Assembly: GCA_964017185.1 (NCBI GenBank)
Contig: OZ024869.1
Location: 57,376,761-57,440,760 of the forward strand
Direction of reading: 5' to 3'
DNA from: Rugalucina vietnamica
Lineage: Eukaryota; Mollusca; Bivalvia; Lucinida; Lucinidae
Length of the DNA: 64,000 bases
Below the pieces are notes generated by a model. That model saw nothing but the letters and a program-made list of their open reading frames with translations. It made no database searches and was not told the origin of the DNA. Positions 3,367 to 57,084 of this stretch are shown one piece after another. Numbering within the stretch: the stretch's first letter is position 1; the number at the start of each line of letters is the position of its first letter. The translations under genes and the position numbers were made by a program.

Positions 3367-5126
3367 TTTAGCTCACCTGAGCCGAAGGCTCAAAAGGTGA
3401 GCTTATAGGATGTCCGTCCGTCGTCGTCCGTCCACAATTTCAAAGATCTTCTCCTCTGAAACCGCTTGAACAATCAAAGCCAAACTTCAAATGTAGCATC
3501 CTTAGGAAGGGGGAACGACAGTTTATATAAATGGTCCAGGTCACATGACCAAGATGGCGGCCATGCCCATATATGGTAAAAACCATGAAAATTCTTATCT
3601 TCTTCTCTGGAACCGGTGGACCGATTTCAACGAAACATGGTAGGTAGCATTTGTGACTCTGACCCATCATAGTGTATATAATAAACCATGACCTTTGGCT
3701 GACCTTGACCTATTTAACGGCAAGCTCAATTTTGGTTACATAGGCTTTTCAATGGAAAAAAAGTGAAAACATTGAATTTTTCAGCATGTTTTGTAGCCTG
3801 TGACCTGAAAGTTGGTAGATACAGACAACATGTAGAGCCAATGAAGTGCTGTGAGTATAAAAAGTCAAGGTCATTTCTTGACCTTGGCCAAAGGTCATTT
3901 ACAAATTAAATATAAATTTTAATTTTCTCAGTAACCACTTGACTAATCAAAGCAAAATTTTATATGTAGTATCCTTAGGATAGAGGAACAAAAGTTTATA
4001 TAAAATGGTCCAGGTCACATGACCTAGATAGCCATCATGGCTATACGTAAATAGCAAAAACCTCTAAAAATCTTCTTCTCCAGAACCAGAAGGCCTATGA
4101 TTTTGAAGCTTGGCATGAAGCATCAGGGGGAGGAGCTCTACAAAGTTTACATAAATCATGACCTTAAGATGACCTTGACCTATTTTACGGCAAGGTCAAC
4201 ATAGGTCGCCCATGCATTTGAATGGGGAAAATTGTCAAAATGTCATTTGAAAAACTTTATGGAAATGGGCAAATAGACTGAAGATTTATGATTCTGGAAA
4301 AAAATGGACCCCAGGGACAGGTCTGCCCCCAATCTTGGGCAATATACATGTATATTACCATAATATCTTCTTCTCTGAAACCGTTTGGCCAATCAAAGCC
4401 AAACGTCATGTGGAGCATTCTTAGGAACTGAAAATGAACGTTTATATAAATGGTCAAGGTCACATGACCAAGATGGCCGCCATAGCTATAAATAGCAAGA
4501 ATCTTTAAAAAATTTCTTCTCCAGAACCAGAAGGCCTATGATTTTGATACTTGGCATGAAGCATCATGGGTAGGAGCTCTACAAAGTTTATATAAATCAT
4601 GACCTTGGGATGACCTTGGCCTATTTTATGGCAAGGCCAACATAGGTTGCCCATGCATTTGAACGGGGAAAATTAGTAAAATGTAATTAAATGGGGGGAA
4701 ACTTTCTGGTAGTATGCAAATGGACAGAAAATTTATGTTTATGGAAAAAATGCCCTCATGGGGTTGTCTGTCCCCGCCCCTGGGCTATATACATGTATAT
4801 GGCCATAATATTCAAACATCTTCTTCTCTGAAACCGCTTGGCCAATCAAAGGCAAACTTTATGTGGAGCATCCTTAGGAAAGGGGAATGAAAGTTAATAT
4901 AAATGGTCAAGGTCTCATGACCAAGATGGCCACCATGGCTATAAATAGCAAAACCTTTATAAATCTTATTCTTCAGAACTGGAAGACCTATGAGTTTGAA
5001 CCTTTGCCTAAAGCATCAGTAAATGGAGCTCTACAAAGATGATCTTGACCTATTTTATGGCAAGGTCAGCTGAGGTCGCATATCCCAGATCTCAGGTGAG
5101 CGTTTACAGGACCATTGGTCCTCTGG
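3367..5126 (-). mobile_element. Family A Helentron-like repeat, copy i
   Basis: Read on the minus strand it starts CCAGAGGACCAATGGTCCTG, a hairpin AGGACC-AAT-GGTCCT, then CGCTCACCTGAG, and ends with GAGCTAAA after a TGAGCC/GGCTCA hairpin. The body is about four diverged tandem monomers of 440-490 bases. Each carries CCAAGATGGC(G/C)GCCAT, GGTCACATGACC and AGGTCAAGGTCA words. There is no target-site duplication and no reading frame. Short asymmetric inverted ends, 3' hairpin, tandem core and head-to-tail junctions resemble non-autonomous Helentrons, including oyster pearl-type elements. The class assignment is inference. Confidence 0.65.
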
Positions 5127-14578: not shown

Positions 14579-15009
14579 GATCATCATGATCGATCATCAT
14601 CATCGATCATCACCATGACGATCGATCATCATCATCAAGACCGATCATAATCATCATCATGATCGATCATAATCATCTAATCCTCATCATCATCGTCGAT
14701 CATGATGAGGATGATCGATCATCATCATAATCGACCATCATCGATGATCATCATCATTATCGATCATCACCATGATGATCGATCATCATTATCATAATCG
14801 ATCATCATCATCATAATCGATCATCATCATGATCGATCATCATCACCATGATCGATCATCATGATCGATCATCATCACGATCGATCATCATGATCGATCA
14901 TCATAATCGATCATCATCACGATCGATCATCATGATCGATCATCATCATCATGGCCGATCATCATGATCGATCATCGTCATGATCGATCATTATGATCGA
15001 TCATGATGC

Positions 15010-30332: not shown

Positions 30333-31552
30333 CCAGGGGACCAATGGTCCTGTAAACGCTGAGATATAAACAGGTAAACTGTTTTGACTAGAATGGTAAT
30401 ATACATGTGTATAACCCTGGAGTCAATGCCTTTTAAAATCATAAAAAATTAGTCCATTTGCCAATTTACTAAATTTTAGCCCTTTAAATGACATTTAACA
30501 ATTTCCCCCATTCAAATGCATGGGCAACCCAAGTTGACCTTGCCGTAAAATAGGTCAAGGTCATCCAAGGGTCATGATTAATATAAACTTTGTAGAGTTC
30601 CATTGCCTGATGATTCATGCCAAGTTTCAAAATCATAGGCGTTCTGGTTCTGGAGAAGAAGATTTTAAAGGTTTTTGCTATTTATAGCCACGGCGGCCAT
30701 CTTGGTTATGTGACCTTGACCATTTATACAAAATTTCATTCACTCTTCCTAAGAATGCTCCACATAAAGTTTGGCTTTGATTGGCCAAGCGGTTTCAGAG
30801 ATCTTTGAATATCACTGGTATATTGCCCCAGGGTGGGGGCAGACAGACACCTGGGGTCCAATTTATTTTCAGAATCATCAATCTTAAGTCCATTTGCCCA
30901 TTGTCTGCAAGTTTTTCCCTACAAATGGCATTTTAACACTTTTCCCCATTCAAATGCATGAGCCACCTACGTTGACCTTGTCGTAAAATAGGTCAAGGTC
31001 ATCCCAGGGTCATGATTTATATAAACTTTGTAGAGCACCAGTCATTGATGTTTCACACTAAGTTTCAAAATCATTGGCCTTCTGGTTCTGGAGAAGATTC
31101 TTAAAGGTTTTTTCTATTTATAGCCATGGTGGCCATCTTGGTCATGTGACCTTGACCATTTATATAAACTTTCTTTCCCCCTTCCCAAGGATGCTCCATA
31201 TGAAGTTTGGCTTTGATTGGCCAAGCGGTTTCAGAAGAGATGTTTCATTATAATGGAAATATACATGTATATAGCCCCGGGGCAGGGGCAGACAACCCCC
31301 CAGGGGCTAAAATTTTCCATTTACATTAATCTTCTGTACATTTGCCTATTCCCAGTAAGTTTTACCCATTAAATAGCATTTTACCATTTTTCCCATTCAA
31401 ATACATTGGCGACCTAAGTTGACCTTGCCATAAAATAGGTCAAGGTCATCCCAGGGTCATGATTTATATAAACTATGATGGGCCCGCGTCCCCGATGCTA
31501 CATACTAAGTTTCATGGAAATCGGCCCACTGATTCTGGAGAAGATTTTTTTA
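30333..31552 (+). mobile_element. Family A copy v, left part
   Basis: It starts CCAGGGGACCAATGGTCCTG and has about two and a half core monomers with CCATCTTGGTCATGTGACC. It stops at GGAGAAGATTTTTTTAAA, where Naiad begins. The copy at 51250 shows the uninterrupted order GGAGAAGATTTTTAAAGGTT. Confidence 0.7.
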
Positions 31553-31829
31553 AAAAAGTACAAGTAGGCAAAGATCAGGAAAAGGCGCAATCAGAAAAAG
31601 ACTCCCACTCAAAAAACCAAGGTGGGAAAAAACCAAACCAACAATCAGGTACTTATACCATGAAAACATTTCGTAAGCCGAATGAGCAGCTATTTTCCCA
31701 ATAGGTGGCCACTCAGTTACCTTAACTAAAATATGCAAACATACATAAGGCGCCAACAGCACAAAAATATTTTAAACACCAAGACATAAAACAAAAAGAA
31801 CCACCACAGAAGTATCGACTTGGAACGAT

Positions 31830-31848
31830 CAGTAACACAAAGTTACTG
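31830..31848 (-). other. Conserved hairpin in the Naiad 3' UTR (CAGTAAC stem)
   Basis: CAGTAAC-loop-GTTACTG is a perfect 7-bp stem. In the relic at 28132 the closing pair is T-A instead of C-G, and a related hairpin is at 60834. Paired changes suggest RNA structure that matters to the element, perhaps recognition by its reverse transcriptase. Confidence 0.55.
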
Positions 31849-31910
31849 GCGGGTTTAAATCGATTTTACACGGCCGTAACCTCACCCTCAGCTTCTGCAG
31901 TGGTTCATAA

Positions 31911-31959
31911 CATTTAGTTAGTTCTTCGGTCCTCGTGGTGAATCTCTAACTAGTAAATG
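31911..31959 (-). other. Conserved stem in the Naiad 3' UTR, weak SECIS candidate
   Basis: CATTTA-GTTAG pairs with CTAAC-TAGTAAATG across a 24-base loop. The stem is bracketed by TGA-containing words (ATGATT, TTATGA) and kept in the copy at 52448-52496. A SECIS needs a TGA/GA quartet and an AA apical loop. The loop here does not fit well, so I only flag it. Confidence 0.3.
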
Positions 31960-32168
31960 AATCATCAAGAACAAACAAATAAATCATGATAAACATCCTG
32001 ATGAATCAAAAACCAGGACTCACAGATTCAGTAAGCTGCCCGACGATGGAGATCCCTGGGCGCCAAATAACTTACTAACTCCGGAGCTAAAGAAAAACAT
32101 CAGTTGGACCCCGGTGGGCCAAGCAACAGACAAGAAGCTCCGGCCCCAACCAACTAAAATGAATAGCT

Positions 32169-35100
32169 TTAAGTCGGGGCCATCATAGAGTCTGACGCCC
32201 GACCCACCGGCGTGCAATTAAAGAAGGCAGCATAGTTATCAACCGTGATTGGGTTAAAAACTAAGCATGCAGACTGTCGCATAACATTCAAGTTATAACC
32301 TATACGTCTGTAACGTGCTATGATTTTTCTAAACTGAAAAGAAAAATCATTACTCCCTATAAGTTTCTTAAATTTGTAAACCAAGTCACCATAAAATTCT
32401 GGTTCCGAAAGACCCTCACTTAAAAGCGTCTTTAACCCAACATAGTGTCTACGATAAAATTTTGAATTTTTTTTCGAAGTTTATGATACCGATAGCCCTG
32501 TTGGAGAAGTTTGGCCGTTAAAGATTTATTTCGAGCGTTGAAGTCTGTAACATGATTGCAGACTCTAGCAAACCTAATAAGTTGCGAAATGTATACACCA
32601 TAAGAAGCACGACGAGGAACGTCACCATCCAAAAACGGAAAATTTACTATATCAAAATCAAAGTCATCGCGCTTACCATAAATTTTAGAAGAAACAAATC
32701 CATTTGCAACAGAAAGATGTAGATCTAAAAAGGGGGCTTCGGTATCCGAGATATTGGCTTTGTTCAACTGTAGTTCAGATGGATAAATTTGATTGACCAT
32801 ACCTTCAAAATAAGGGTTGTCAATGTTCAAAAGGTCATCGAGGTACCTAGAAGTGGAATTAAAAGCCTCGATAACATCAGCTTGATTATCATGGTTAAGA
32901 GAATCCATGAAATCTCTTTCGTAGCAGTATAAAAAATAAATCAGCTACGAGAGGTGCGCAATTTGTACCCATCGGAATTCCAACAATTTGTCTGTATAAC
33001 TTGGTCCCAAATCTAATATAAATATTATCCAGGAGATAGGATAAGGCGTCGCACACATTCTGACATGACCAAAGTGTATACCGACTTTGGTCAGAGGATG
33101 TGAAAAAAGCCTTTCTGTCATTACATGCCAAATAAAGTGAACCATAGTTTTTTAATGCCCTTTTGAAGGTCCACTCTATCAAATCCAGAAGTTTTTCTTT
33201 AATTAGATTATGTGGTAAAGTTGTATACAGAGTAGAAAAATCATATGTGGACAAGCTCGTCGCACGGAACCCTCTACACTTCAATTTATTGAGCACCTCA
33301 CCAGAATTTTTTATTGACCAAAACCAATTTTTATTTGAAGTTTCATACACTGTCTCACAGTATCTTATAACATGAGATTTGATAGCAGTAAGACAGGAAG
33401 TTAATAATTTAGAAAGTTCAGTAGTAGTACAAGAGCTAGAATTTGCAATAAATCTTGCTTTGTATGGTCTTTTGTGAAGCTTAGGTAACCAATACATCGT
33501 AGGAAGTTTGTCTTGGCCTTCATTGACACAAACAGAAAACTTAACAGGTAAATCGTTTAAGTGGGCATTTACTACAGACACCTCATCAGTATCTGTCTCC
33601 AGATAAGCCCTGGTACCATCCAGCTCCTGTTTTAAGGTGTTAACGTAGTGAAGCCTACAAACAACAACAACATTGTTTGCGGCTTTGTCTGCCGGAACCA
33701 AGACATACTTTCTGTGAAATTCTTGCATACCCTGCTTCAAATGCCTAAATGACGATTTAGGTTTAGGAGGTAAAAGTTTAGTATTTTGTGAATAAAACTG
33801 TATACGTTTATCCATGATAGTGAAGATACTTCTTTTCCATTCTTTAAGAGCATTATCCTCAACACCCTCTCGTTTACACCATCGATTAACGAAATCATTC
33901 AATGCAGATGCAATCTCCTCTCTACATTTATCGAAATTGATGCAGGAAGGGAATCTATATTTCGGACCTTTAGAAACAATTTTGCGAATTGTAGAATCCG
34001 AAATTATTTTTAAATTTCCAGTAACTATATGTCCGGCTGGTTGATAAACAAATTTTGAATCTTTACAATCTCAAGACTTAGGAGTATTAGCATGGATATC
34101 AAGATCAGAAACAAGTTTATTGAAATTAAAAATAGTATTTCTGATTGGTTTATTATATTTGTAACAAATAATAGGAGGTTCTGAATTTTGGAAGTACGTA
34201 GGTATAGACTGTATCACTGATGTATCCTGAAATATGCTTGGTAAATCAATAAAGTCAATTCCTTTATTAATGAAAGGAATTTTAATAAAACTTCTAATGT
34301 GATTAGATTCGGAATCGATAAATGGACGAAGAGCATGCTGAGTATAACATCTTGTTAACAGTGCAGCGTCATACATTTGATGATTTCTATCGTAAAATCT
34401 ATTAGCCTCTGTGTCCAAGGAACGTAATACAGCAATAGGTAGAGAACTAAGATAAGACAGCATTGGATGTCGACCGTGAATCCTTAGTTTAACAGCTAAA
34501 TCATTAAGGAAAGTGTTCAATTTCATTGTAGCGCACCGTTTACGTTTGTCATTACCCTTTTCCCGTATACCATGAGATCTAGATTTACGTTTACGAGACT
34601 CTGAAAGTGTAAGTACATCAAAATCGGGCATTTTGGAAATATTTCCCTCATGGTAAATGTTGTCGTTAAATCCCAGTGGAAAGGGAGTTTGCAATAATTT
34701 AATCCATGTAAGTTCAGTTTCAAATCGTTTGATGTTTTTGAATCTAACAGAAGAATTTTCATCATATGAGATTTTTTCCACTGGTTGAACTATAACATTA
34801 TTGGGAGAATGACCAGTGCGCTTAAAATGCTGGTACAGAAAGGTATCATTATTTTTGGGCTTTCTGATTCTACGATAGTGCTCACCAAATCGTTTTTGCA
34901 AAGTTCGACAAGTTTGTCCAACATATTGCATCCTACAATTATTTGTATATCAACTAAGAACATATACAAGATCCATTGATTTTCAGTCTAAATCAGAATC
35001 ATTAACCACTGAAAATGTCCTACCATTCATAGATGAAGTGATAGTAGTCTTAGAGCATAAATGATTGCAACAGTTGCACTTCTTGGCATTGCACTTAGAA

Positions 35101-35381
35101 ATACTAGGGTACATTCCAGGTCTCTTGAACGGATTAATATATTTACGTAAAATTGGTGATTTAAGTGGAGATAACCTTATCTGAAGATTATTACGAAACA
35201 TATTAGAATTAGAAGCTCCGTGTAGATTAACAGTAGATGCCGAAAATAAATTAAGAGGTGTCACCCTAACAGTAGGTAATAAATTTTGAAAATTGTTAGT
35301 TGAATGAGGAATCCGTACAGTAGACGCGGCATGCAACCTAAGGGGAGTTAATGTAATTCCTAATCTTTTTGTGATAGTCAT
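32169..35381 (-). CDS. Naiad polyprotein: GIY-YIG endonuclease plus Penelope-type reverse transcriptase, with in-frame TGA codons
   Basis: The first true ATG in frame is at 35381; an in-frame TAA lies at 35454-35456. Residues 100-135 carry a Cys cluster (KCNAKKCNCCNHLC). The GIY-YIG domain follows: VYVL, YVGQT, LQKRFGEHYRRI (Arg, His) and FETELTWIKLL (catalytic Glu). A CxC linker is near residue 437. RT motifs follow: PKLHKRPYKARFI, YDFSTLYTT (Asp ~714), GIPMGTN (~801), RYLDDLL (~847), then FLDLHL and RRASYGVYISQLIRFARVC. The path holds only three stops before 32169, all TGA, at codons 133, 144 and 437, each at a conserved Cys. Two 1-base shifts lie in homopolymers (A6 at 32931-32936, T8 at 32467-32474). 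Length is about 1,070 residues. The reader should treat selenocysteine decoding as likely but unproven. Confidence 0.85.
34071..34073 (-). other. In-frame TGA in the CxC motif
   Basis: The reading NTPKS-TGA-DCKDSKF places TGA at the first Cys of the CxC motif that links endonuclease and reverse transcriptase in Naiads. The downstream frame continues open without any shift. Confidence 0.85.
34950..34952 (-). other. In-frame TGA after the GIY-like strand
   Basis: The reading is VYVLS-TGA-YTNNCRMQYVGQT. GIY-YIG domains of this group normally read ..YL..C..C...YVG.T, so TGA replaces the first Cys of the CxxxxC pair. Confidence 0.85.
34983..34985 (-). other. In-frame TGA before the GIY-like strand
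   Basis: The reading is NDSDLD-TGA-KSMDLVYVL. The family pattern is Cys-Lys-Ser-x-(N/D)-(L/V)-(I/V)-Y, so TGA again stands for Cys, 11 codons from the next TGA. Confidence 0.85.
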
Positions 35382-35558
35382 AGTTGGGAGTTCTGTGTTG
35401 ATACTGCCAAAAGAAGCGCGACACTCATACCGGTTATAGAAAAAATAATGCACTTAATCGTAATGCAAAATCTCTCAAATGAAAGAACAAGGTATAACCG
35501 AAGCCCACATCTCAGGTCCATGTCTAATACAAGTCTATGGATAGAAAGGTAAGAATCG

Positions 35559-35568
35559 CTTATATAAC
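35559..35568 (-). promoter_or_regulatory. TATA-like box of Naiad
   Basis: GTTATATAAG on the minus strand lies about 180 bases upstream of the ATG. It is a plausible RNA polymerase II TATA element. No other core element was checked. Confidence 0.35.
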
Positions 35569-35696
35569 GAGATACGAGTGACGGTCAACTAATGACCTTC
35601 AATACGGTATCGAAGAGTTGTGGTAGTTAGAGATAGGAAAATACAAACTGATTGCAAGCAATCCCTGAGGATTGGAAAAATAAGAGCATTAAATGG

Positions 35697-35938
35697 ATGT
35701 AAAGGTTTTTTCTGTTTATAGCCATGGCGGCCATCTTGGTCATGTGATCTGGACCATTTATATAAACTTTCGTTCCCCCTTCCTAAGGATGCTCCACATG
35801 AAGTTTGGCTTTGATTGGCCAAGCAGTTTCAGAGGAGAAGATCTTTGAAAATGTGAACGACGGACGGACGGATGACGGACGGACGCCGGAGCATGGGTAT
35901 ACTATAAGCTCACCTGTGAGCCTTCCGCTCAGGTGACC
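35697..35938 (+). mobile_element. Family A copy v, right part
   Basis: It resumes with AAAGGTTTTTTCTGTTTATAGCC and ends with TATAAGCTCACCTGTGAGCC and CTCAGGTGACC. The terminal GAGCTAAA has mutated to TGACCAAA. Confidence 0.7.
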
Positions 35939-36620
35939 AAAGCATAGGTTGCAAGGCTCTTCTTTACTTCTGCCACTTTAGAACTTTTCCTATGTAGGGA
36001 AATTATTTCCACTACTGTTATAGTTATCCCCATAACAGAACAAATGTGAGATAAAATGGCTTCAATGGATTTTCTTCATTTTTTCCGCCCCCATGCTTCA
36101 CTTTACGTAGTAATGTTTGATGTAAAAGGGAAAGTGAATTTTGAAATGGGGTCTGGGGGCCGCCTAGGCCCCAGAAGCTCTTGGGTTTATAATGCAATCT
36201 CCTCTGATGTTGGCCTCTCCTGAGGTCATTTATCATATTTTAGCATGCAGCCAAAATGAATTGAAATTAAAGAAAACAAGTAGGATACAGAAAAAGTAGG
36301 TCTACTTTGAAGCTCAACCACTGTAAAAAGGAAAAATCAAATACTTCTCAAATAATATGTTTAAAGACTTTAACTTAATTAAGAAATTCTTAGAAACTGA
36401 AAGCCATGTAACTTTAGGGGAAAAGAGTTCACTTTTTTCAAATTCTTTTAAGACATTGATACATTGCCAAAGACCATCCCCTTTGAGAAAATTTAGAAAT
36501 TCCCTGACTTTTCCCTCACTTTTTGCAATTTTCCCTGACTCTAACTCAAATTCCCTGACTTTTCACTGACCTGGAAAAAATTTCATTTTCCAGACTTTTT
36601 CCCTGACCGTGGCAACCCTG

Positions 36621-46321: not shown

Positions 46322-48449
46322 ACCAGACGACCATTGGTCCTGAGAACGCTCACCTGAAGCCTGATCCTGGAGTATTAAGTCATCATGAAATGACCTTGAC
46401 CTTGAATACTCACACACCTTTATTGAATTCATAAGTTGTCTGCATCTGCAAAGTTTCAGGTCTCAGGCTGCAATAGCTTCCAAACCCAGTGATTTATGAG
46501 AAAACCATAATTTTAATTTTGATATTTAAATGACTTTGGGTCAAGGTCAAGAAATGACCTTGGCCTTCATTAATTACTTACCTTCATTGACTCCATTGGT
46601 TGTCTTCATCTAGCAACTTCCAGGTCTCAGACTGCAACAGTTTCCAAAATATCCATTGTTTACGCCTTTTCCCATGTAAAAGCATATGTTTCCAAAATTG
46701 ACCTTGCCGTAAAATAGGTCAAGGTCATCCTATGGTCATCATTTGATCAAACTATGATGGGCTGGAGTCCCAAATGCTACATACCAAGTTTCGCGAAAAT
46801 TGGCCTTCTGGTTCTGGAGAAAATTTTTGAGTGGTTTTTACCATATATGGGCGTGGCGGCCATCTTGGTAATGTGACCTGGATTTCGCGATCAAACTTTC
46901 GTCTCCCCTACCCATGGATGCTCCACATAAAATTTCACTTTGATTGGCCCAGTAATTTCAGAGAAGATCTTTGAACAGTGTGTATGGACGACACACTGGC
47001 CAAGGTCAAGAGATGACCTTGACCTAAATTAATCACATACCTTCATCTTCTCCATTAGTTGTTTGCATCTAACACTTTTCAAGCATCAGGCTGCAATAGT
47101 TTTCAAAAAAAAATCCATAGTTTTCACTTTTTTCCCATGTAAAAGCCTATGTTTCACAAATTGACCTTGCCGTAAAATATGTCAAGGTCATCCTAGGGTC
47201 ATCATTTTATCAAACTATGATGGGCTGGAGTCCCAAATGCTACATACCAAGTTTCATGAAAATCAGCCTGCCGGTTCTGGAGAAGAAGATTTTTGAGTGG
47301 TTTATACCATATATGGGCGTGGCAGCCATCTTGGTCATGTAACCTGGATTTCGCGATCAAACTTTCGTCTCCCCTACCCATGGATGTTCCACATAAAATT
47401 TCACTTTGATTGGCCCAGCAGTTTCAGAGAAGAAGACCTTTGCAAAGTGTGTATGGACGACAGACTGGCCAAGGTCAAGAGATGACCTTGACCTAAATTA
47501 ATCACATACCTTCATCTACTCCGTTAGTTGTTTGCATCTACCACTTTTCAGGCATCAGGCTGCAATAGTTTTCAAAAAATCCATAGTTTTCACTTTTTCC
47601 CATGTAAAAGACTATGTTTCCAAAATTGACCTTGTCGTAAATTAGGTCAAGGTCATCCTAGGGTCATCATTTTATCAAATTATGATGGGATAAAAGTCCC
47701 AAATGCTACATATAAAGTTTCATGAAAATCGGCCTGCCGGTTCTGGAGAAGATTTTTAGTGGTTTTTACCATATATGGGTGTGGCAGCCATCTTGGTCAT
47801 GTGACCTGGATTTCGCGATCAAACTTTCATCTCCGCTACCCATGGATGCTCCACATAAAATTTCACTTTGATTGGCCCAGCAGTTTCAGAGAAGAAGACC
47901 TTTGAAAAGTGTGAACGGACGACAGACTGGCCAAGGTCAAGAGATGACCTTGACCTAAATTAATCACAAAACTTCATCTACTCCATTAGTTGTTTGCATC
48001 TACCACTTTTCAGGCCTCAGGCTGCAATAGTTTTCAAAAAATCCATAGTTTTCACTTTTTCCCATGTAAAAGCCTGTTTCCAAATTTGACCTTGCCATAA
48101 AATAGATCAAGGTCATCCAAGGGTCATCATTTTATCAAACTATGATGGGCTGAAGTCCCCGATGCTACATACCAAGTTTCGTGGAAATCGGCCCACCGGT
48201 TCTGGAGAAGATTTTTGAAGGGTTTTTACCATATATGGGCGTGGCGGCCATCTTGGTCATGTGACCTGGATTTCGCGATCAAACTTGAAATGCCACTACC
48301 CAAGGAGGCTCCACATAAAATTTCAACTAGATCGGCCAAGCGGTTTCAGAGAAGAAGATCTTTGAAATTGTGGACGACGGACGGACGGACGCCGGATCAT
48401 GGCCATCCTATAAGCTCACCTTGTGAGCCTTCGGCTCAGGTGAGCTAAA
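46322..48449 (+). mobile_element. Family A copy vi, ~470-bp core monomers
   Basis: It starts CCAGACGACCATTGGTCCTG and has about four monomers (GCCAAGGTCAAGAGATGACC at about 46990, 47467 and 47930). It ends with TATAAGCTCACCTTGTGAGC, the TGAGCC-TTC-GGCTCA hairpin and GAGCTAAA. This copy is complete at both ends. Confidence 0.75.
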
Positions 48450-48813
48450 AAACGGTTATTGGCAAATCAACATCTTTTCGTATGACGCAGCTCTGTACTA
48501 CTAATAGGACAAGTGACCTTTCCATTTTCGGAAAACACGCTCACTGACCTTGGTTTTGTTTCAAAATATTTTGGATTGACGCAACAGGAAACGTCGCGGA
48601 TAAAAGAAATCCATTGTAACAGCATATTAAAGCTTATGCTCTAACAAAGGCCTACAGAATTTAAGGCCTGATTTCAGTCTCATGTGCTGGTAAAAATATA
48701 ATTTTGGAATTTTGAGGAGAAAAGTATTGCAAATAGCAGGTACAGGTCCCTGCTTATAAACTCCAGCACAACTATCACATTCAAATTACACATGTTGCCA
48801 TGGCAACACTCCA
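48450..48813. other. Unassigned stretch with a perfect X-box
   Basis: GTTGCCATGGCAAC (48794-48807) is a perfect RFX-type palindrome. No gene is recognised next to it. Confidence 0.45.
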
Positions 48814-50436
48814 CCAGGGGACCAATGGTCCTGTAAACGCTCACCTGAGTCTGCTGCAAATACCAATAAACATGTTTGAATATTATGGTATTTAACCCCA
48901 GTGCAGGGGCAGATGAAGCCCTTGGGCCGTTGTCTTTTTTCAGAATAATCAATATTCTGTCCATTTGCCAATTTCTTGCTGGCTTTTCCCTTCAAATGAC
49001 ATTTTAACATTTTTTTTTCCCATTCAAATGCATGGGCAATCCATGTTGATCCTGCCATAAACTTGGTCAAGGTCCATTTCCTGCAAGATTTTCACCTAAA
49101 ATGACTTATTAAAAGTTTTCCCCATTCCAATGCATTGGTGACCTATGTTGACCTTGTCTTAAAATAGGTCAAGGTCACCACAGGGTCATGATTTATATAT
49201 ACATAGTAGTATTTCAGCCATTGTTGCTTCATGCCAAGTTTCTTTGAAATCGGTCCACCAGTTTCGGGGAAGAAGATTTTTGAAGGGTTTTTACCATATA
49301 TGGGCATGGCAGCCATCTTGGTCATGTGAACTAGATAATTTATAAATACATTGATTCCCCCATTCCATAGATGCTTCACATAAAATTTGGCTTTGATTTG
49401 CCAAGCGGATTCAGAGGAGAAGTTTGAATATTATGGTAATATACATGTATATTGCCCCGGGGTGGGGGCAAATGAGCCCCTGAGGTCTATTTGTTTTTTA
49501 GAAACATTAATATTCAGTCCTACTGCCCATTTTCTGCAAGACTTTCACTTTAAATGACATTTTAAAAGTTTTCCTTATTCAAATGCATTGGCTACCTATG
49601 TTGACCTTGCCGTAAAAAGGTCAAGGTCATCACAGGGTCATGATTCATATATACAATGTAGTACTTGAGCCATCGATGCTTCATGCCAAGTTTCTTTGAA
49701 ATCAATCCGCCGGTTCTGGAGAAGATTTTTAAAGGATTTTTACCATATATGGGCATTGCGGCCAAATTGGACATGTGACCTGGATTATTTATATACACAT
49801 TGATTACCCCTTCCTATTGATGCTTCACATGAAATTTGGCTTTGATTGGCCAAGCGGTTTCAAAGGCGATAATGTTTGAATATTATGGTAATATACATGT
49901 ATATTGCCCCGGGGTGGAGGCAGATGAGCCCCTGTGGTCCAATTTTTTTCAGAATCATTAATATTCAGTCCTACTGCCCATTTCCTGCAAGACTTTCACT
50001 TTAAATGGCATTCTAAAAGTTTTCCCCATTCAAAATGCATTGGCGACCTATGTTGACCTTGATGTAAAATAGGCCAAGGTCGTAACAGGGTCATGAATTA
50101 TATATACATTGTAGTGCTTGAACCATCGATACTTCATGCCAAGTTTCGTTGAAATCAGTCCGGCGGTCCTGGAGAAGAAGATTTTTGAAAGGTTTTTACT
50201 ATATATGGGCATGGCGGCCATCTCATGTGACCTGGATTTCTTATATACATATTGGTTCCCCCTTCCTATAGATGCTTCATATAAAATTTGGCTTTGGTTG
50301 GCCAAGCAGTTTCAGAGATGAAGATCTTTGAAATTGTGGACGGACGGACGGATGAAAGGAAAACGGACGGACGGACGCCGGATCATGGCCATCCTATAAG
50401 CTCACCTTGTGAGCCTAACGGCTCAGGTGAGCTAAA
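48814..50436 (+). mobile_element. Family A copy vii
   Basis: It starts CCAGGGGACCAATGGTCCTG and has about three and a half core monomers, each with the TACATGTATATTGCCCC(A/G)GGG phrase. It ends GAGCTAAA at 50436, directly abutting the next copy. Confidence 0.75.
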
Positions 50437-51406
50437 CCAGAGGACCTATGGTCCTGTAAACGCTCACCTGAAACCCAAGATATATACCAATAAACTTGTT
50501 TGACTAGAATGGTAATATACATGTATATAACCGCAGGGCCGGGTCAGAGCAACCCCTGGAGTCAATTTCTTTTTGTAAACATAAAACTGCAGTCCATTTG
50601 CCAATTTACTGCAAGTTTTGCCCTTCAAATGACATTTTAACACTTTTCCCAATTCAAATGCATGAGCGACCTATGTGAACCTTGCCGTAAAATAGGTCGT
50701 CATCCCAGGGTCACGATTTATATAAACTTTGTAGAGCTCCAGTCACTGATGCTTCACACCAAGTTTCAAAATCATTGGCCTTCTGGTTCTGGAGAAGACT
50801 TTAAAGGTGTTTTTTTTTCTATTTATAGTCATGGCGGCCATCTTTGTCATGTGACCTTGACCGTTTATATAAACTTTCTTTCCCCCTTCCCAAGGATGCT
50901 CCATATGAAGTTTGGCTTTGTTTGGCCAAGCGATTTCAGGGGAAAAGATGTTTCATTATTATGGAAATATACATGTATATAGCCCAAGGGCAGGGACAGA
51001 CAACCCCCCAGGGGCTAAAATTTTCCATTAACATTTATCTTCTGTCCATTTGCCTATTCCCAGTAAGTTTTACCCATTAAATAGCATTTTACCATTTTTT
51101 CCCATTCAAATGTATTGGCGACCTTAGTTGACCTTGCCGTAAAATAGGTCAATGTCATCCTAGGGTCATGATTTATATAAACTATGATGGCCCTGCGTCC
51201 CCAATGCTACATACCAAGTTTCGGGGAAATCGGCCCACTGGTTCTGGAGAAGATTTTTAAAGGTTTTTGCTATTTATAGCCATGGCGGCCATCTTGGTCA
51301 TGTGACCTGGACTGTTTATATAAACTTTCGTTCCCCCTTCCTAAGGATGCTCCACATGAAGTTGGCTTTGATTGGCCTGGACGACGGAGCATGGCCATCC
51401 TATAAG
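50437..51406 (+). mobile_element. Family A copy viii, left part
   Basis: It starts CCAGAGGACCTATGGTCCTG immediately after the preceding copy and runs through two core monomers to GGCCATCCTATAAG. It is interrupted there by a 2.3-kb element, and its terminal 44 bases lie at 53711-53754. Confidence 0.75.
51398..51406 (+). repeat. 9-bp target duplication, left
   Basis: TCCTATAAG, identical to 53711-53719; family A normally has it once. Confidence 0.85.
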
Positions 51407-52082
51407 AATGTCAGACAACTCGGACCCAAGACGACTCGGACGCAAAATTTCTGAGACGACTCGGACCCAAACCTTTACGGACCCAAGACGAATCGGACCC
51501 AAACCTTTTCGGACCCAAGACGAATAGGACACATACTGACGGACGATATCATAAATGTTTGATATCCCCCCCCCCCCCCGGGGCGGAGAGGGTCGTGGCT
51601 ATAAATGACCTAGAGCATTATCTTAAATGTTAATAAAACTCGTAAAACGAGTGAGCAGTCTTTGTTACGCAACTACATGGATAACGGAACAACCAATTTT
51701 AAAACGAACGAATGAACACAATGGTTTTAGAATGAATCTGTTTTTGACATTGGTTTATGATTTTTAACGATGCACGACATTTCGTCGAAAATGTGTTTTG
51801 TCGAAAATCTTGTAACTTCAAAAATATTCGCCACAAAGTTTTGAGATTTATTCCGTATGAGACTAGCCTGTAAGTCCACATTTTGAGCCACCAGCCCTTA
51901 GGTTTGGGGTAAAGGTCTGGTCATGGGGACATTTTCGACACATGTAATTTTCGGTTTTTAAAGTTGTATGAATTTTAAGTGCGTAAACTTGTTTTTTTAA
52001 CTTTTATGTTTTCTGCAAATTTGTGAAGGGTGATCCACAGTAATTTAAGACAATGTTTGATCTGTGTGTCAAATGTGAAAAG

Positions 52083-52661
52083 GTACAAGTAGGCAAAGAT
52101 CAGGAAAAGGCGCAATCAGAAAAAGATTCCCACTCCAAAAACCGAGGCGGGAAAAAACCAAACCAACAATCAGGCACACACACCATGAAACAAATCGTAA
52201 GCCGAATGAGCAGCTATTTTCCCAATAGGTGGCCACTCAGTTACCTTAACTTAACTTAAAATATGAAAACATACATAAGGCGCCAACAGCACGAAATTTT
52301 TTTTAAAAAACACCAAGACATAAAACAAAAAGAACCACCACAGAAGTATCGACTTGGAACGATAAGTAACACAAAGTTACTGGCGGGCTTAAACCGGTTT
52401 TACATGGCCATAACCTCACCCTCAGCTTCTGCAGTGGTTCATAACATTTAGTTAGTTATTCGGTCCTCGTGGTGAATCACTAACTAGTCAATGAATCACC
52501 AAGAACAAACAAATAAATCATGATAAACATCCTGATGAATCAAAAACCAGGACTCACAGACTGAGTAAGCTGCCCGACGATGGAGATCCCTGGGCGCCGA
52601 ATAACCTACTAACTCCGGAGCAAAAGAAAAACACCAGTTGGACCCCGGTGGGCCAAGCAGG
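52083..52661 (-). mobile_element. Naiad 3' UTR fragment joined to a tRNA-like head
   Basis: It matches 31560-32125 closely, including the 3' end GCCTACTTGTACC, and stops upstream at TGCTTGGCCCACC. Directly upstream is a tRNA-like sequence (52683-52767). It may be a 5'-truncated Naiad, or a SINE that borrowed the Naiad tail. Confidence 0.75.
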
Positions 52662-52682
52662 AAAACCTTATCGGTACGACAT

Positions 52683-52767
52683 ATGCGATGAAGACTCACA
52701 AAATTCTCGTTAGTTTTCAGCAACTAAACCCACCACTCGCACTTAACCGCTCGGCTATCTGCCAAGC
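52683..52767 (-). other. tRNA-like (Leu/Ser-type) head
   Basis: The A box TAGCCGAGCGG is perfect (52747-52757) and is followed by TTAAGTGCGAG. The expected B-box position, 45-55 bases on, reads TTGTGAGTCTTC, which is only partly conserved. It is not a functional tRNA. Confidence 0.55.
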
Positions 52768-53039
52768 TAGATGACTTATTCTTAACACATTGATTCGATC
52801 TAGCAAGTAATCATGATATGAGCATGCATCTCCTATTTTCATCATATAACGGTAACTTACTGCCATTTTTTTGTGAAACAAACAGTAATTTATGTTTGTT
52901 GATTATCGCTTATCGATTACAAAAGTCCTGATTGATAAACAATTATCGACGTTGATTAACTTATCGAATGAATCGAGATACTTAAATGAGGTGTCACTTG
53001 TGCCTACAAGCGAGTTTTAGTGTATTGTAAAATGTTGAT

Positions 53040-53535
53040 AATATTGAAAGATCAGTATTTTCATATCACAGAATCATCATATCAAAGTAGTCACCAAATG
53101 TCCAAGTAAATTCAATAACCCAGGTTACACATAATAACATCATGAGCTGCATTGTTACAGATAAATGAATCATTTCATGCATCTTTTGTCATGTTTGTCA
53201 TTTTTTTATCGAAAAAAAAAAAAAAAAAACAAAAAACAACATTTTGCTTATCATATTATAACAGAATCATCATATCAATGTAGTCACCAAATGTCCAAGT
53301 AAATTCAGTAACCCAGGTTACATAAAATAACCCAGGTTACACAAAATAACATAATGAGCTGCATTATTTCAGATAAATGACTCAATTTCAGGCATTTTTT
53401 GTCATTTTTTATCGAAAAAAAAAATCCTTATCATATGATCACAGAATCAGCATATCAAAGTAGTTATCAAATGTTCAAGTATATTCAATAACCAAGGTTA
53501 CACAAAATAACATCATGAGCTGCATTTTGATTTTA
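53040..53535 (+). repeat. ~190-bp tandem repeat, three units
   Basis: CATATCAAAGTAGTCACCAA, CCAGGTTACACA and CATCATGAGCTGCATT recur near 53090, 53275 and 53455. Short A-runs end two of the units. The middle unit has an extra ATAACCCAGGTTACA. Confidence 0.75.
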
Positions 53536-53710
53536 GCGAGTATTAGTGTTTTATACAAATTTGATCTACATAATATAATATAAATTGTTTGCATGGTCGT
53601 CCTTGTTGTTGGGTCCGAGTCGTCTCAAAATTGGGTCCGAGTTGTCTCAGGCTTGGGTCCGATTCGTCTTGGGTCCGAAAAATTGCATGGGTCCGAGTTG
53701 TCCGGCTACC

Positions 53711-53754
53711 TCCTATAAGCTCACCTTGTGAGCCTTCTGCTCAGGTGAGCTAAA
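53711..53754 (+). mobile_element. Family A copy viii, terminal part
   Basis: TCCTATAAGCTCACCTTGTG, then the TGAGCC-TTC-TGCTCA hairpin and GAGCTAAA; it completes the copy interrupted at 51406. Confidence 0.75.
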
Positions 53755-54061
53755 AAGCATAGAAATACCACTTTTTACAATTTTGGATCTATTTTTTACC
53801 ATTCAACATCATTTTCAACTACCGGCCCATGCGACAAACAATTTCTTATTATGAAATAATTATGAAGTATCATCCAGACATATTGTATGCTAAGTATCAT
53901 TTTGTTCGTCCTGTGGGCTGGCACTTAAAAATTAAAAAATGTGTTCAGAAATGTTCAAAAATAGACCAAAAAGTGCAGAATGTGCTTTATCTATGGTTCT
54001 TTTGGGCGTTGCCATAACAACACTTGTAGGATAAAGGCCGTATATTAAATGCCGGAAATCA
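53755..54061. other. Unassigned stretch
   Basis: Nothing recognised. Confidence 0.4.
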
Positions 54062-54220
54062 TTCACCATTTTTAAATTATCGGCTGGTTTCCTGCTTACA
54101 AAAAATCAATATTGGAAAAACAGGTAACCACAAACCCCCCTCAGGGGGGTTCTGGTTACCTGTATTTCCAATATTGATTTTTATGAGCTGGAAAACAGCC
54201 GATGATGCAAAAATGGTGAA
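54062..54220. mobile_element. 159-base hairpin MITE-like element
   Basis: TTCACCATTTTT at the left end is complementary to the right end. The inner arms AATCAATATTGGAAA, CAGGTAACC and CCCCCC pair around a TCA loop with very few mismatches. It is too palindromic for chance and has no reading frame. The target duplication is unclear. Confidence 0.75.
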
Positions 54221-54476
54221 GACCGTGACGTTGTTTGAAATGCGTGTGAAATCGAGGTATCAAATGCGCGGATGGCCTGTAGGGTAATTAGCCGATAATC
54301 ACTCAGGTAACCTGTGTTCATACTGGCTTTGGGCAGGTACGATCGTTATGTTAGTCATTTTTTTCATGCTTTTGTAGGTTTTAGACTTTTTATAGTGTTT
54401 TTAAATGGTATTTTATCCAAGAACATTATTTTAAACATCATGGATCTTAAAATTTCTGACACTAATAGAAGAAAGA
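54221..54476. other. Unassigned stretch
   Basis: Nothing recognised. Confidence 0.4.
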
Positions 54477-55474
54477 CCAGAGGACCAATGGTCCTGTAAA
54501 TGCTCACCTGAGACCTGCGATATATATTGATAAACTTGTTTGACTAAAATGGTAATATATATGTATATAACGCTTGGGCAGGGTCAGAATAGCCCCTGGA
54601 GTCAATATTTTTTTTCAAATCATAAATATTCAGTACATTTGCCAATGTACTGCAAGTTTTGCCCTTAAAATGAATTTCCCCCATTAAAATACATGGGCTA
54701 CCTAAGTTGACCTTGCCGTAAAATAGGTCATGGTCATCCCAGGGTCATGATTTATACAAACTTTGTAGAGCTCCTTTGCCTGATGCTTCATGCCAAGTTT
54801 CAAAATCATAGGCCTTCTGGTTCTGGAGAAGAAGATTCTTAAAGGTTTTTTGCTATTTATAGCCATGGTGGCCATCTTGGTCATGTGACCTTGACCATTT
54901 ATACAAACTTTGGTTCCCCCTTCCTAAGAATGCTTCACATAAAGTTTGGCTTTGATTGGCCAAGCGGTTTCAAAGAAGATGATGTTTGAATATTATGGTC
55001 ATACACATGTATATAGCCCCAGGGCAGGGGCAGACAACCCTCTGGGCCCAAAATATTTTCATAAACATAAATCTTCTGTCCATTTGCTCATTCCTATCAA
55101 GTTTTCTGCCATTAAATGACATTTTCTATTTTTCCCCATTCAAATGCATTGGCGGCCTAACTTGACCTTGCCGTACAAACTTTGTAGAGCTCCATTGCCT
55201 GATGCTTCATGCCAAGTTTCAAAATCATTGGCCTTCTGGTTCTGGAGAAGATTTTAAAAGGTTTTGCTATTTATAGCCCTGGCGGCCATCTTGGTCATGT
55301 GACCTGGACCATTTAAACAAACTTTCATTCCCCCTTCCTAAGGTTGCTCCACATGAAATTTGAATTTGATAGGCCAAGCGGTTTCAGAGAAGATGATTGA
55401 AAAGTGTGAACGACAATGACGACGACGGAGCATGGGTATACTATAAGCTAGCCTGACGGCTCAGGTGAGTTAAA
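54477..55474 (+). mobile_element. Family A copy ix
   Basis: It starts CCAGAGGACCAATGGTCCTG and has two core monomers. It ends with ACTATAAGCTAGCCTGACGG and CTCAGGTGAGTTAAA (one base off the usual GAGCTAAA). It provides the uninterrupted reference (CTGCCATTAAATGACATTTT near 55108) for the 28-kb insertion site. Confidence 0.75.
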
Positions 55475-57084
55475 AATCGTGCAGCATATTACGTTTGTGT
55501 TTGTGTTTAAGTATACAAGGTGTTTCATAATAACTGTCCTTAATCTAAACAGCTGTGGTTTTATGAAGGAAAGGTCGATGAACCACTTTTTGTTGACGTG
55601 ACGCTCACAATTAAAAGTCAAACATTGCAAATGACGAAAACAGATTTAGAATTTTAATCTCGAGATGACAAATGCCTCGTCCGAGTTCACATAGACACCA
55701 AATTTAATCATTCGACATATATAAAAAAAAATTCCAGCATGATGTTGAAAATTAAGTTTCAAGTTTTGAAAGATTAAATCTCAAATGAACAATATTTTGA
55801 GCATATTCTTAAAATTGTGACCGCAAACGTTTATGTTCATTATTTTAAATCGGCGACAACGGCTCTTATCATGGTCTTTTATGTGCTTTGTGGTGAAAAC
55901 GTCAAAATGATGTAACGACGTTTGACGGAATGAACTTCTTAAAATGCGAAATCTGAAGCAGACATGATTATACACTACCACAATCAAAGTACACCAACTG
56001 GTTATATTTAAAATAAAACTAAAAATAAGAAAACAATAAGTAATGTTGAAAAGGGGGGGGGGGTCTCACGCTATATGAAATTTACATAGGGTTCTGCCCA
56101 CGCACCGATTTTTATAATATTATGCATATTGCTAGCTTGGTGCATGGCCACTTTATTAGTAATATAGATTTTCTCTTAACTACTTAAAATTTTTAAATAC
56201 AACATTTTGTATTAGAGGGGGTCTGAATATAGGGGTGTGTGTGATTAAAGTCGCCCATGACCGTCATATTAGCCTCTTCCTAATTATGTTTGTTTGTAAA
56301 ATAATCTAGAATGATCAACCATCCTTTTGGTATTGCATAATTGTTGATAGCTATAATATTGAATTCAGCTGATTATCATTTGTTTTGCAGACGACCCCAA
56401 ATTTAAGCTCCATAATGATGAAACCGCATGTTTGATTTTCAATTTTAATATGTTCCATATTTTGTCAACCTATAATTTTTACCTCAAATTAGGCCACACA
56501 TATATAGATTATATGCTGAAAATTGCGTGAAATTTGAAGACCGGTAACATCTTTTTCTAGGACATTGAATGATACAAGTCAGAATTCTGAAAAACGTAAA
56601 ATAAATAATGATTTATCCAATTATAAGTATTTTATGTTTTTAACATGTTACAAAGTAAACTTTTTGTGAATAATTTTCCAGCTTAACGATTTCGTGTCTT
56701 GTGTGACCATATATATTTTGAATATTGATTTAAGTGAGAAAATTGCACCCTGTCTTGGACCTTATAAACCATATCAGCCCATCATTTTAAGTTTTCATAA
56801 TTAGATTTTAGAACATGATTCTATCTATTAGCTAGCAATTCTCTATAGTTTATTCGTGTTTATGATGCAATTGCCTAGTTTTTACTGTTCTGGTTATTTT
56901 TTCCAAAAATTAAGTTATTTGGGTATTAATTAATTATTTAAATGAACTTCTACAGCTATGTTGTTGATTTCTACATCCTGTAATTCACACCATATGGAAA
57001 CCTAAGGGATTTAGCATTTTGCATGAAATAAACCCAATGAGGCTAAGGACAAATCATTTCCTGCTGATTACTATATCAGGACCT

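Follow-up and report, generated by a model that had tools for sequence, protein, structure and literature searches.

A Naiad-type Penelope-like retroelement of Rugalucina vietnamica with in-frame TGA codons at conserved cysteine positions: a probable selenoprotein

Features of the locus

The window, by which we mean the whole stretch of 64,000 nucleotides analysed here, contains a Naiad-type element of approximately 4150 bp on its minus strand (31550–35699). The bounds of the insertion were placed there because both flanks consist of a repeat unit which is found uninterrupted at 50702–51377. The following features were recognized:

31550–35699, minus strand: whole Naiad copy, approximately 4150 bp, which interrupts a dispersed repeat unit; the paralog at 50702–51377 matches both flanks
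32897–35381, minus strand: first frame, 828 codons plus TAA, covering the N-terminal GIY-YIG endonuclease, the CxC linker and the first part of the reverse transcriptase (RT)
34983–34985, minus strand: TGA codon 133, putative selenocysteine (Sec); Cys133 in relatives, immediately before the GIY strand; TGA in 39/39 genomic copies
34950–34952, minus strand: TGA codon 144, putative Sec; first Cys of the CCHH set C144, C149, H185, H191; TGA in 39/39 genomic copies
34071–34073, minus strand: TGA codon 437, putative Sec; first of the two Cys in the CxC linker; all 39 genomic copies have TGA
33657–33659, minus strand: codon 575, TGT in the window; a presumed fourth Sec site in some relatives
32435–32944, minus strand: second RT piece, in another frame, containing the YLDD motif
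32169–32480, minus strand: C-terminal piece, ending SDSMMAPT and then TAA (32171–32169)
32127–32194, minus strand: SECIS element, which takes in the final codons and the stop codon (RF00031, 39.0 bits, cut-off 35, E 2.4e-5)
31550–32126, minus strand: 3' region, the end of which also lies 52–58 bp upstream of base 1 in 13/39 other copies (pseudo-LTR arrangement)
52078–52659, minus strand: separate fragment, 93% identical to 31553–32125 of the Naiad 3' region

The dispersed repeat unit is represented by many diverged copies (31001–31549, 35700–35936 and approximately 46600–55500), one of which hosts the Naiad insertion. The separate fragment of the Naiad 3' region at 52078–52659 stops just short of the SECIS. 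A match to U3 snoRNA (37.4 bits, Rfam cut-off 34) is located on the minus strand at 14817–15004. Twister-P1 was matched in the 3' region with 23.3 bits (cut-off 67.2), a match which we set aside as chance.

Reading frame

The minus-strand frame opens with ATG at 35381 and extends over 828 codons, an in-frame TAA being present upstream at 35456. Up to codon 829 it is interrupted solely by TGA at codons 133 (34985), 144 (34952) and 437 (34073), exactly as the first-pass annotation of this DNA had described it. The next stop, TAA at codon 829 (32897), lies beyond the point where the frame departs from the homologous reading. The remaining part of the RT is split between 32944–32435 and 32480–32169, with the final piece back in register with the first frame. 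This arrangement is in keeping with two small frame changes in the RT of this copy, which had also been proposed at first pass; the window copy itself is frameshifted, with two frame breaks.

Relationship to the Naiads

Naiads are defined by a permuted order of domains, an N-terminal GIY-YIG endonuclease and a C-terminal RT in one ORF, together with CxC and CCHH motifs; their RT also has an insertion-in-fingers domain. The window protein shares 32–37% identity with 24 relatives which carry Cys at the TGA sites (Cys-type). P0057 and P0060, with approximately 35% identity to it across residues 94–824, possess GIY-YIG (136–226 and 129–219, above the Pfam cut-off) before RVT_1 (708–852 and 741–845, below the cut-off). 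The endonuclease likewise precedes the RT in P0044 and P0047, both matches being below the Pfam cut-off. Neither of these two Pfam models was matched by the window protein, P0001, P0003 or P0018, and searches of PDB by sequence and by profile gave no match.

Codons 437–439 read U-D-C, that is, the CxC linker between endonuclease and RT; among the Cys-type relatives C437 occurs in 24/24 and C439 in 22/24. The CCHH set of the window endonuclease is composed of U144, C149, H185 and H191, and the corresponding C, C, H and H are each found in all 24 relatives. Naiads are not known to carry the canonical hammerhead ribozyme, and in 30500–36500 a search with Rfam detected no hammerhead even with E values up to 10 allowed.

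Pseudo-LTR, tandem and inverted copies are typical of Naiad Penelope-like elements. The family of the window element is abundant in its own genome (1.09 Gb), and in 39 other copies examined base 1 of the element is the start in 16, the remainder beginning further in, while many end at element base 4145–4150. A piece of the 3' end lies 52–58 bp upstream of base 1 in 13/39, which are pseudo-LTR-like, and an inverted piece is found in 9/39. Among the matches listed in two own-genome searches are rows approximately 4.2 kb apart, which look like tandem arrays. Judged by its sequence and by the definition given above, the element is a Naiad-type Penelope-like retroelement with a predicted N-terminal GIY-YIG endonuclease, CxC linker and C-terminal RT. 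PMC11167929 gives the tandem and pseudo-LTR arrangement as a habit of Penelope-like elements.

Viral contigs contained no relative by protein or by alignment search. A DNA pattern of the SECIS core matched 25 viral contigs; these were rejected, as tblastn found no Naiad encoded in any of them. One scan of bacterial and archaeal genomes yielded one Cys-type Naiad, L001, in a MAG contig.

Craig, Yushenova, Rodriguez and Arkhipova are said to have described, in 2021 in Mol Biol Evol (38:5005), Naiads which turned into selenoproteins with several Sec independently in spiders and in clams. The first-pass annotation had named clams and ostracods, which departs from the "spiders and clams" reportedly given in that abstract. 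The window element fits the kind so described: at the level of its general features, it shares the N-terminal GIY-YIG domain, the CxC linker, the RT, several in-frame TGA codons, and the tandem, pseudo-LTR-like and inverted copies.

TGA codons and conserved cysteines

A column was regarded as conserved Cys if Cys occurs there in 90% or more of the 24 Cys-type relatives (P0047 and P0057 among them). Ten columns qualify: 97, 102, 105, 133, 144, 149, 437, 439, 575 and 651. TGA codons 133, 144 and 437 fall on three of these, and at each of them Cys is present in 24/24, which bears out the proposal that the TGAs sit at the family's Cys positions. Under a single-mutation null, three changes creating stops would give TGA every time, and every time on one of the ten conserved Cys columns, with a probability of 0.8–2 x 10^-5, a rough figure which assumes independence. 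The Cys-type Naiads, that is, the 24 relatives and L001, agree with the window protein in domain order and in the ten conserved columns, but differ from it in having Cys at 133, 144 and 437 (24/24) and, in L001, the sole DNA example, in being without a SECIS.

Besides C144, C149, H185 and H191, at least 23 of the 24 Cys-type relatives keep Y140, Y153-V154-G155, R164, H168 and E202, conservation which is as expected for a GIY-YIG nuclease. Because the GIY-YIG-type Tyr, Arg and Glu lie elsewhere and the CCHH set is conserved, the replaced Cys are read as ligand positions; they look like metal-ligand or structural positions, one per cluster. It had been suggested that TGA replaces catalytic or structural Cys, and of this the catalytic part is not supported.

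The SECIS element

The match at 32194–32127 is the sole Rfam SECIS_1 above cut-off in the 64-kb window and lies on the element's strand. The region 32120–32201 folds with -35.3 kcal/mol (z -4.59). At first pass 31553–32168 had been named as the place to look for a SECIS; one does exist on the same strand, but it lies across the stop codon and partly outside that interval.

The ORF ends in SDSMMAPT, in which Met-Met is specified by ATGATG and contains the AUGA core of the SECIS; in the predicted fold the UAA stop codon is unpaired in the SECIS loop. Among 47 relatives which reach the C-terminal end, 36 terminate as MMxxX (17 MMAPT, 13 MMVPT and 6 others). The other 11 comprise four ending in SD or LD, one having MM with a longer tail and six without MM. 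Since Met has one codon, the MM protein end indicates, as read from the proteins alone, that the core sequence of the SECIS is kept in these relatives.

The SECIS, on whose occurrence somewhere in the family the earlier reading had been made to depend, is above cut-off in 23/39 other copies (12/20 and 11/19) and in 9/9 further pieces. On the matched strand, all 23 agree with at least 60 of the 68 bases of the window SECIS. The 16 copies lacking a match above cut-off include three not covered, one broken and 12 with changes. The core letters in the other copies are ATGA in 34/36, AAA in 34/35 and GGA in 35/35. In the SECIS the copies are 98.7% identical to the window, against 97.0% over the preceding 300 bases and 98.7% over the following 300; as the SECIS equals the latter, this comparison alone gives no extra constraint relative to the 3' region. 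L001 specifies Cys at 133, 144, 437 and 575, and in this single Cys-type DNA control no SECIS was found up to E 10.

Among the matches listed in literature searches on SECIS in coding regions or at stops, no SECIS straddling a stop codon was found. The GPX4 of fowlpox virus is a selenoprotein with an in-frame SECIS (Mix et al. 2007, as described in PMC6769590), and this SECIS works inside the reading frame. Fowlpox GPX4 and the window element have in common that the SECIS is in coding sequence and not wholly in the 3' UTR. Unlike the viral one, the SECIS of the window element is part of a retroelement and extends across the stop codon, and there would be three UGAs for it to serve.

Copies in the same genome

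The 39 further copies are approximately 96–99% alike over the longest piece, and all share 398 unchanged codons out of 828. Each has TGA at codons 133, 144 and 437, a point which had been put forward as a check, and Cys codons are found at these sites in 0/39. As the copies are so alike and not independent, this is weak by itself. Elsewhere in them there are 33 stops (31,314 codons examined in all), namely 17 TGA, 10 TAA and 6 TAG, and 10 of the 17 TGA represent one shared CGA-to-TGA change at codon 821. Sixteen of the 39 are free of stops beyond the three TGA sites. Codon 575 is TGT in 38 and TGC in one.

Two further own-genome searches used other relatives as queries; their best-scoring candidates are mutually overlapping and carry stop counts without positions. 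The first gave at least 73 copies, 71 with three TGA, one with four TGA and one with three TGA and one TAG, and the second at least 46 copies, all with three TGA. Most copies in the two lists have a 1101-residue frame, and in many the long frame is broken by three TGAs only, the window copy being frameshifted. In L082 and L083, for which positions were read out, the TGAs of the ORF are codons 133, 144 and 437; in L083 another two TGAs precede the ORF start. With P0002 as query, which spans only codon 437 of the three sites, a further search gave at least 58 copies, 55 with one TGA and two with two TGA; the remaining copy has one TAA, and its codon 437 is TGG.

Diverged relatives

Three protein searches (the best 120 of 315, 16 of 16, and the best 120 of 985 matches) gave 243 different proteins. 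Among the matches listed, segments aligned at 40% identity or more have W at residue 133 in 26/26, at 144 in 26/28, at 437 in 10/16 and at 575 in 17/49; at any other non-Trp query position W never occurs more than seven times. The six C at 437 in this set come from segments at 40–50% identity. The exceptions at 144 are P0185 (Cys) and P0148 (Pro), and three relatives have gaps at 133 and two at 144. W at TGA is presumably what a gene caller using code 4 writes.

In other relatives the predicted ORF is broken at the same places. Among the matches listed, 81 relatives start at M151, the ATG just after U144, 15 (63–96% identity) end at residue 436, 15 start at 577, and one ends at 132. Near-identical pairs of W-bearing and broken proteins, at 94–99% identity overall, include P0001 and P0110 (98.4%) and P0026 and P0176 (96.2%) for W437, P0124 and P0166 (98.4%) for W at 133/144, and P0002 and P0097 (98.8%) for W575. 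A partner over 90 residues exists for 7 of the 10 W437 proteins, 15 of the 25 with W at 133 and 144, and 13 of the 13 W575 proteins, in each case with four at 94% identity or more. Because near-identical relatives break the ORF at the same codon, W is taken to represent TGA. Genuine Trp at these sites is argued against on the same ground, though one own-genome copy does have TGG at 437. TGA at these sites is very probably old, its presence in the diverged relatives being deduced from W and from the ORF breaks.

Site 575 appears to vary among subfamilies, and a quick tree requires at least three changes there (SH-aLRT support only). P0030, P0039, P0063 and P0079, a clade at 45–48% identity, combine W575 with Cys437 and may thus have another set of Sec sites. 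P0066 is a Cys-type Naiad with W only at the residue aligned to codon 133, where its close relative P0061 has Cys; this is possibly a fresh TGA, or Trp.

Decoding of the UGA codons

tRNA-Sec is encoded at two loci of the genome, with scores of 79 and 71 bits (cut-off 47) and the anticodon TCA in each; the Rfam tRNA-Sec search matches 14/14 control genomes too, over cut-off in five. The features of a eukaryotic selenoprotein gene, that is, in-frame UGA at the Cys of homologues, a downstream SECIS on the same strand and a host tRNA-Sec, are all present. We hold with high confidence that the Naiad ORF is decoded with Sec at UGA 133, 144 and 437, and that this is a selenoprotein-coding retroelement. 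The first-pass annotation had arrived at the same reading, which the Cys of the relatives, the SECIS, the retention of TGA in 39/39 copies and the tRNA-Sec all support.

The alternative which survives best, though we regard it as unlikely, is that the UGAs are mainly regulated stops from which short N-terminal products arise, Sec read-through being a minor output. U133 and U144 are only 11 codons apart, low efficiency is to be expected for read-through at three UGAs, and the 81 listed relatives with predicted ORFs beginning at codon 151 could be cited in its favor. Against it, the endonuclease and RT downstream stay open in many of the listed copies, which implies that active copies must make the full-length product.

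Far less probable is that UGA is read as another residue without selenium, by a near-cognate tRNA, as Trp through A-to-I editing, or by a suppressor tRNA. TGA alone does leave the inserted residue unspecified, and the copy with TGG at 437 would suit Trp. The residue replaced is invariably Cys in the Cys-type relatives at all three sites, and Trp would be unusual as a metal ligand. The SECIS in the window, in the majority of the 39 copies and in every further piece, and the tRNA-Sec in the genome, also speak against it.

Ordinary decay, in which a dead copy would have acquired three chance stop codons which its relatives inherited, is favored by the two frame breaks, by the scattered stops in other copies and by the shared ancestry of the copies, but we give it almost no credence: every one of the three stops is TGA and falls on an invariant Cys (about 1e-5), listed relatives at 40–80% identity have W or breaks at the same sites, a SECIS is present, and nearly all of the listed own-genome copies have exactly three TGA.

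Based upon the Sec reading, a single ORF would be decoded with Sec at UGA 133, 144 and 437, and the SECIS, formed jointly by the final codons, the stop codon and the initial bases of the 3' region, would recruit the host Sec machinery. Without Sec insertion, translation would end after 132 residues, ahead of both endonuclease and RT. There would be one Sec per likely metal site, 133 in C97/C102/C105/C133, 144 in C144/C149/H185/H191 and 437 in CxC, a grouping drawn from residue invariance and not from a structure. Transposition would depend on the host's supply of Sec.

We might tentatively suggest, as a possibility short of an even chance, that the Sec-type Naiads have fused the recoding signal with the termination site, and that at each of three or four metal-ligand-like sites Sec stands in for one Cys. 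If so, one short stretch would be under selection as protein end, stop codon and SECIS at once, and transposition would be tied to host selenium status.

As a rule, a eukaryotic Sec site is a single redox residue. The Naiad described here would be a highly multiplied retroelement which puts Sec at several Cys positions resembling metal ligands; at the DNA level, the case for this is made up of the conserved TGAs, the SECIS, the host tRNA-Sec and the many listed copies interrupted by three TGAs only. It also serves as a warning that predicted protein sets may split such elements or give Trp at Sec sites. Two questions can now be put to the test: what a mobile enzyme would gain from costly Sec at ligand positions, and whether the selenium status of the host limits transposition.
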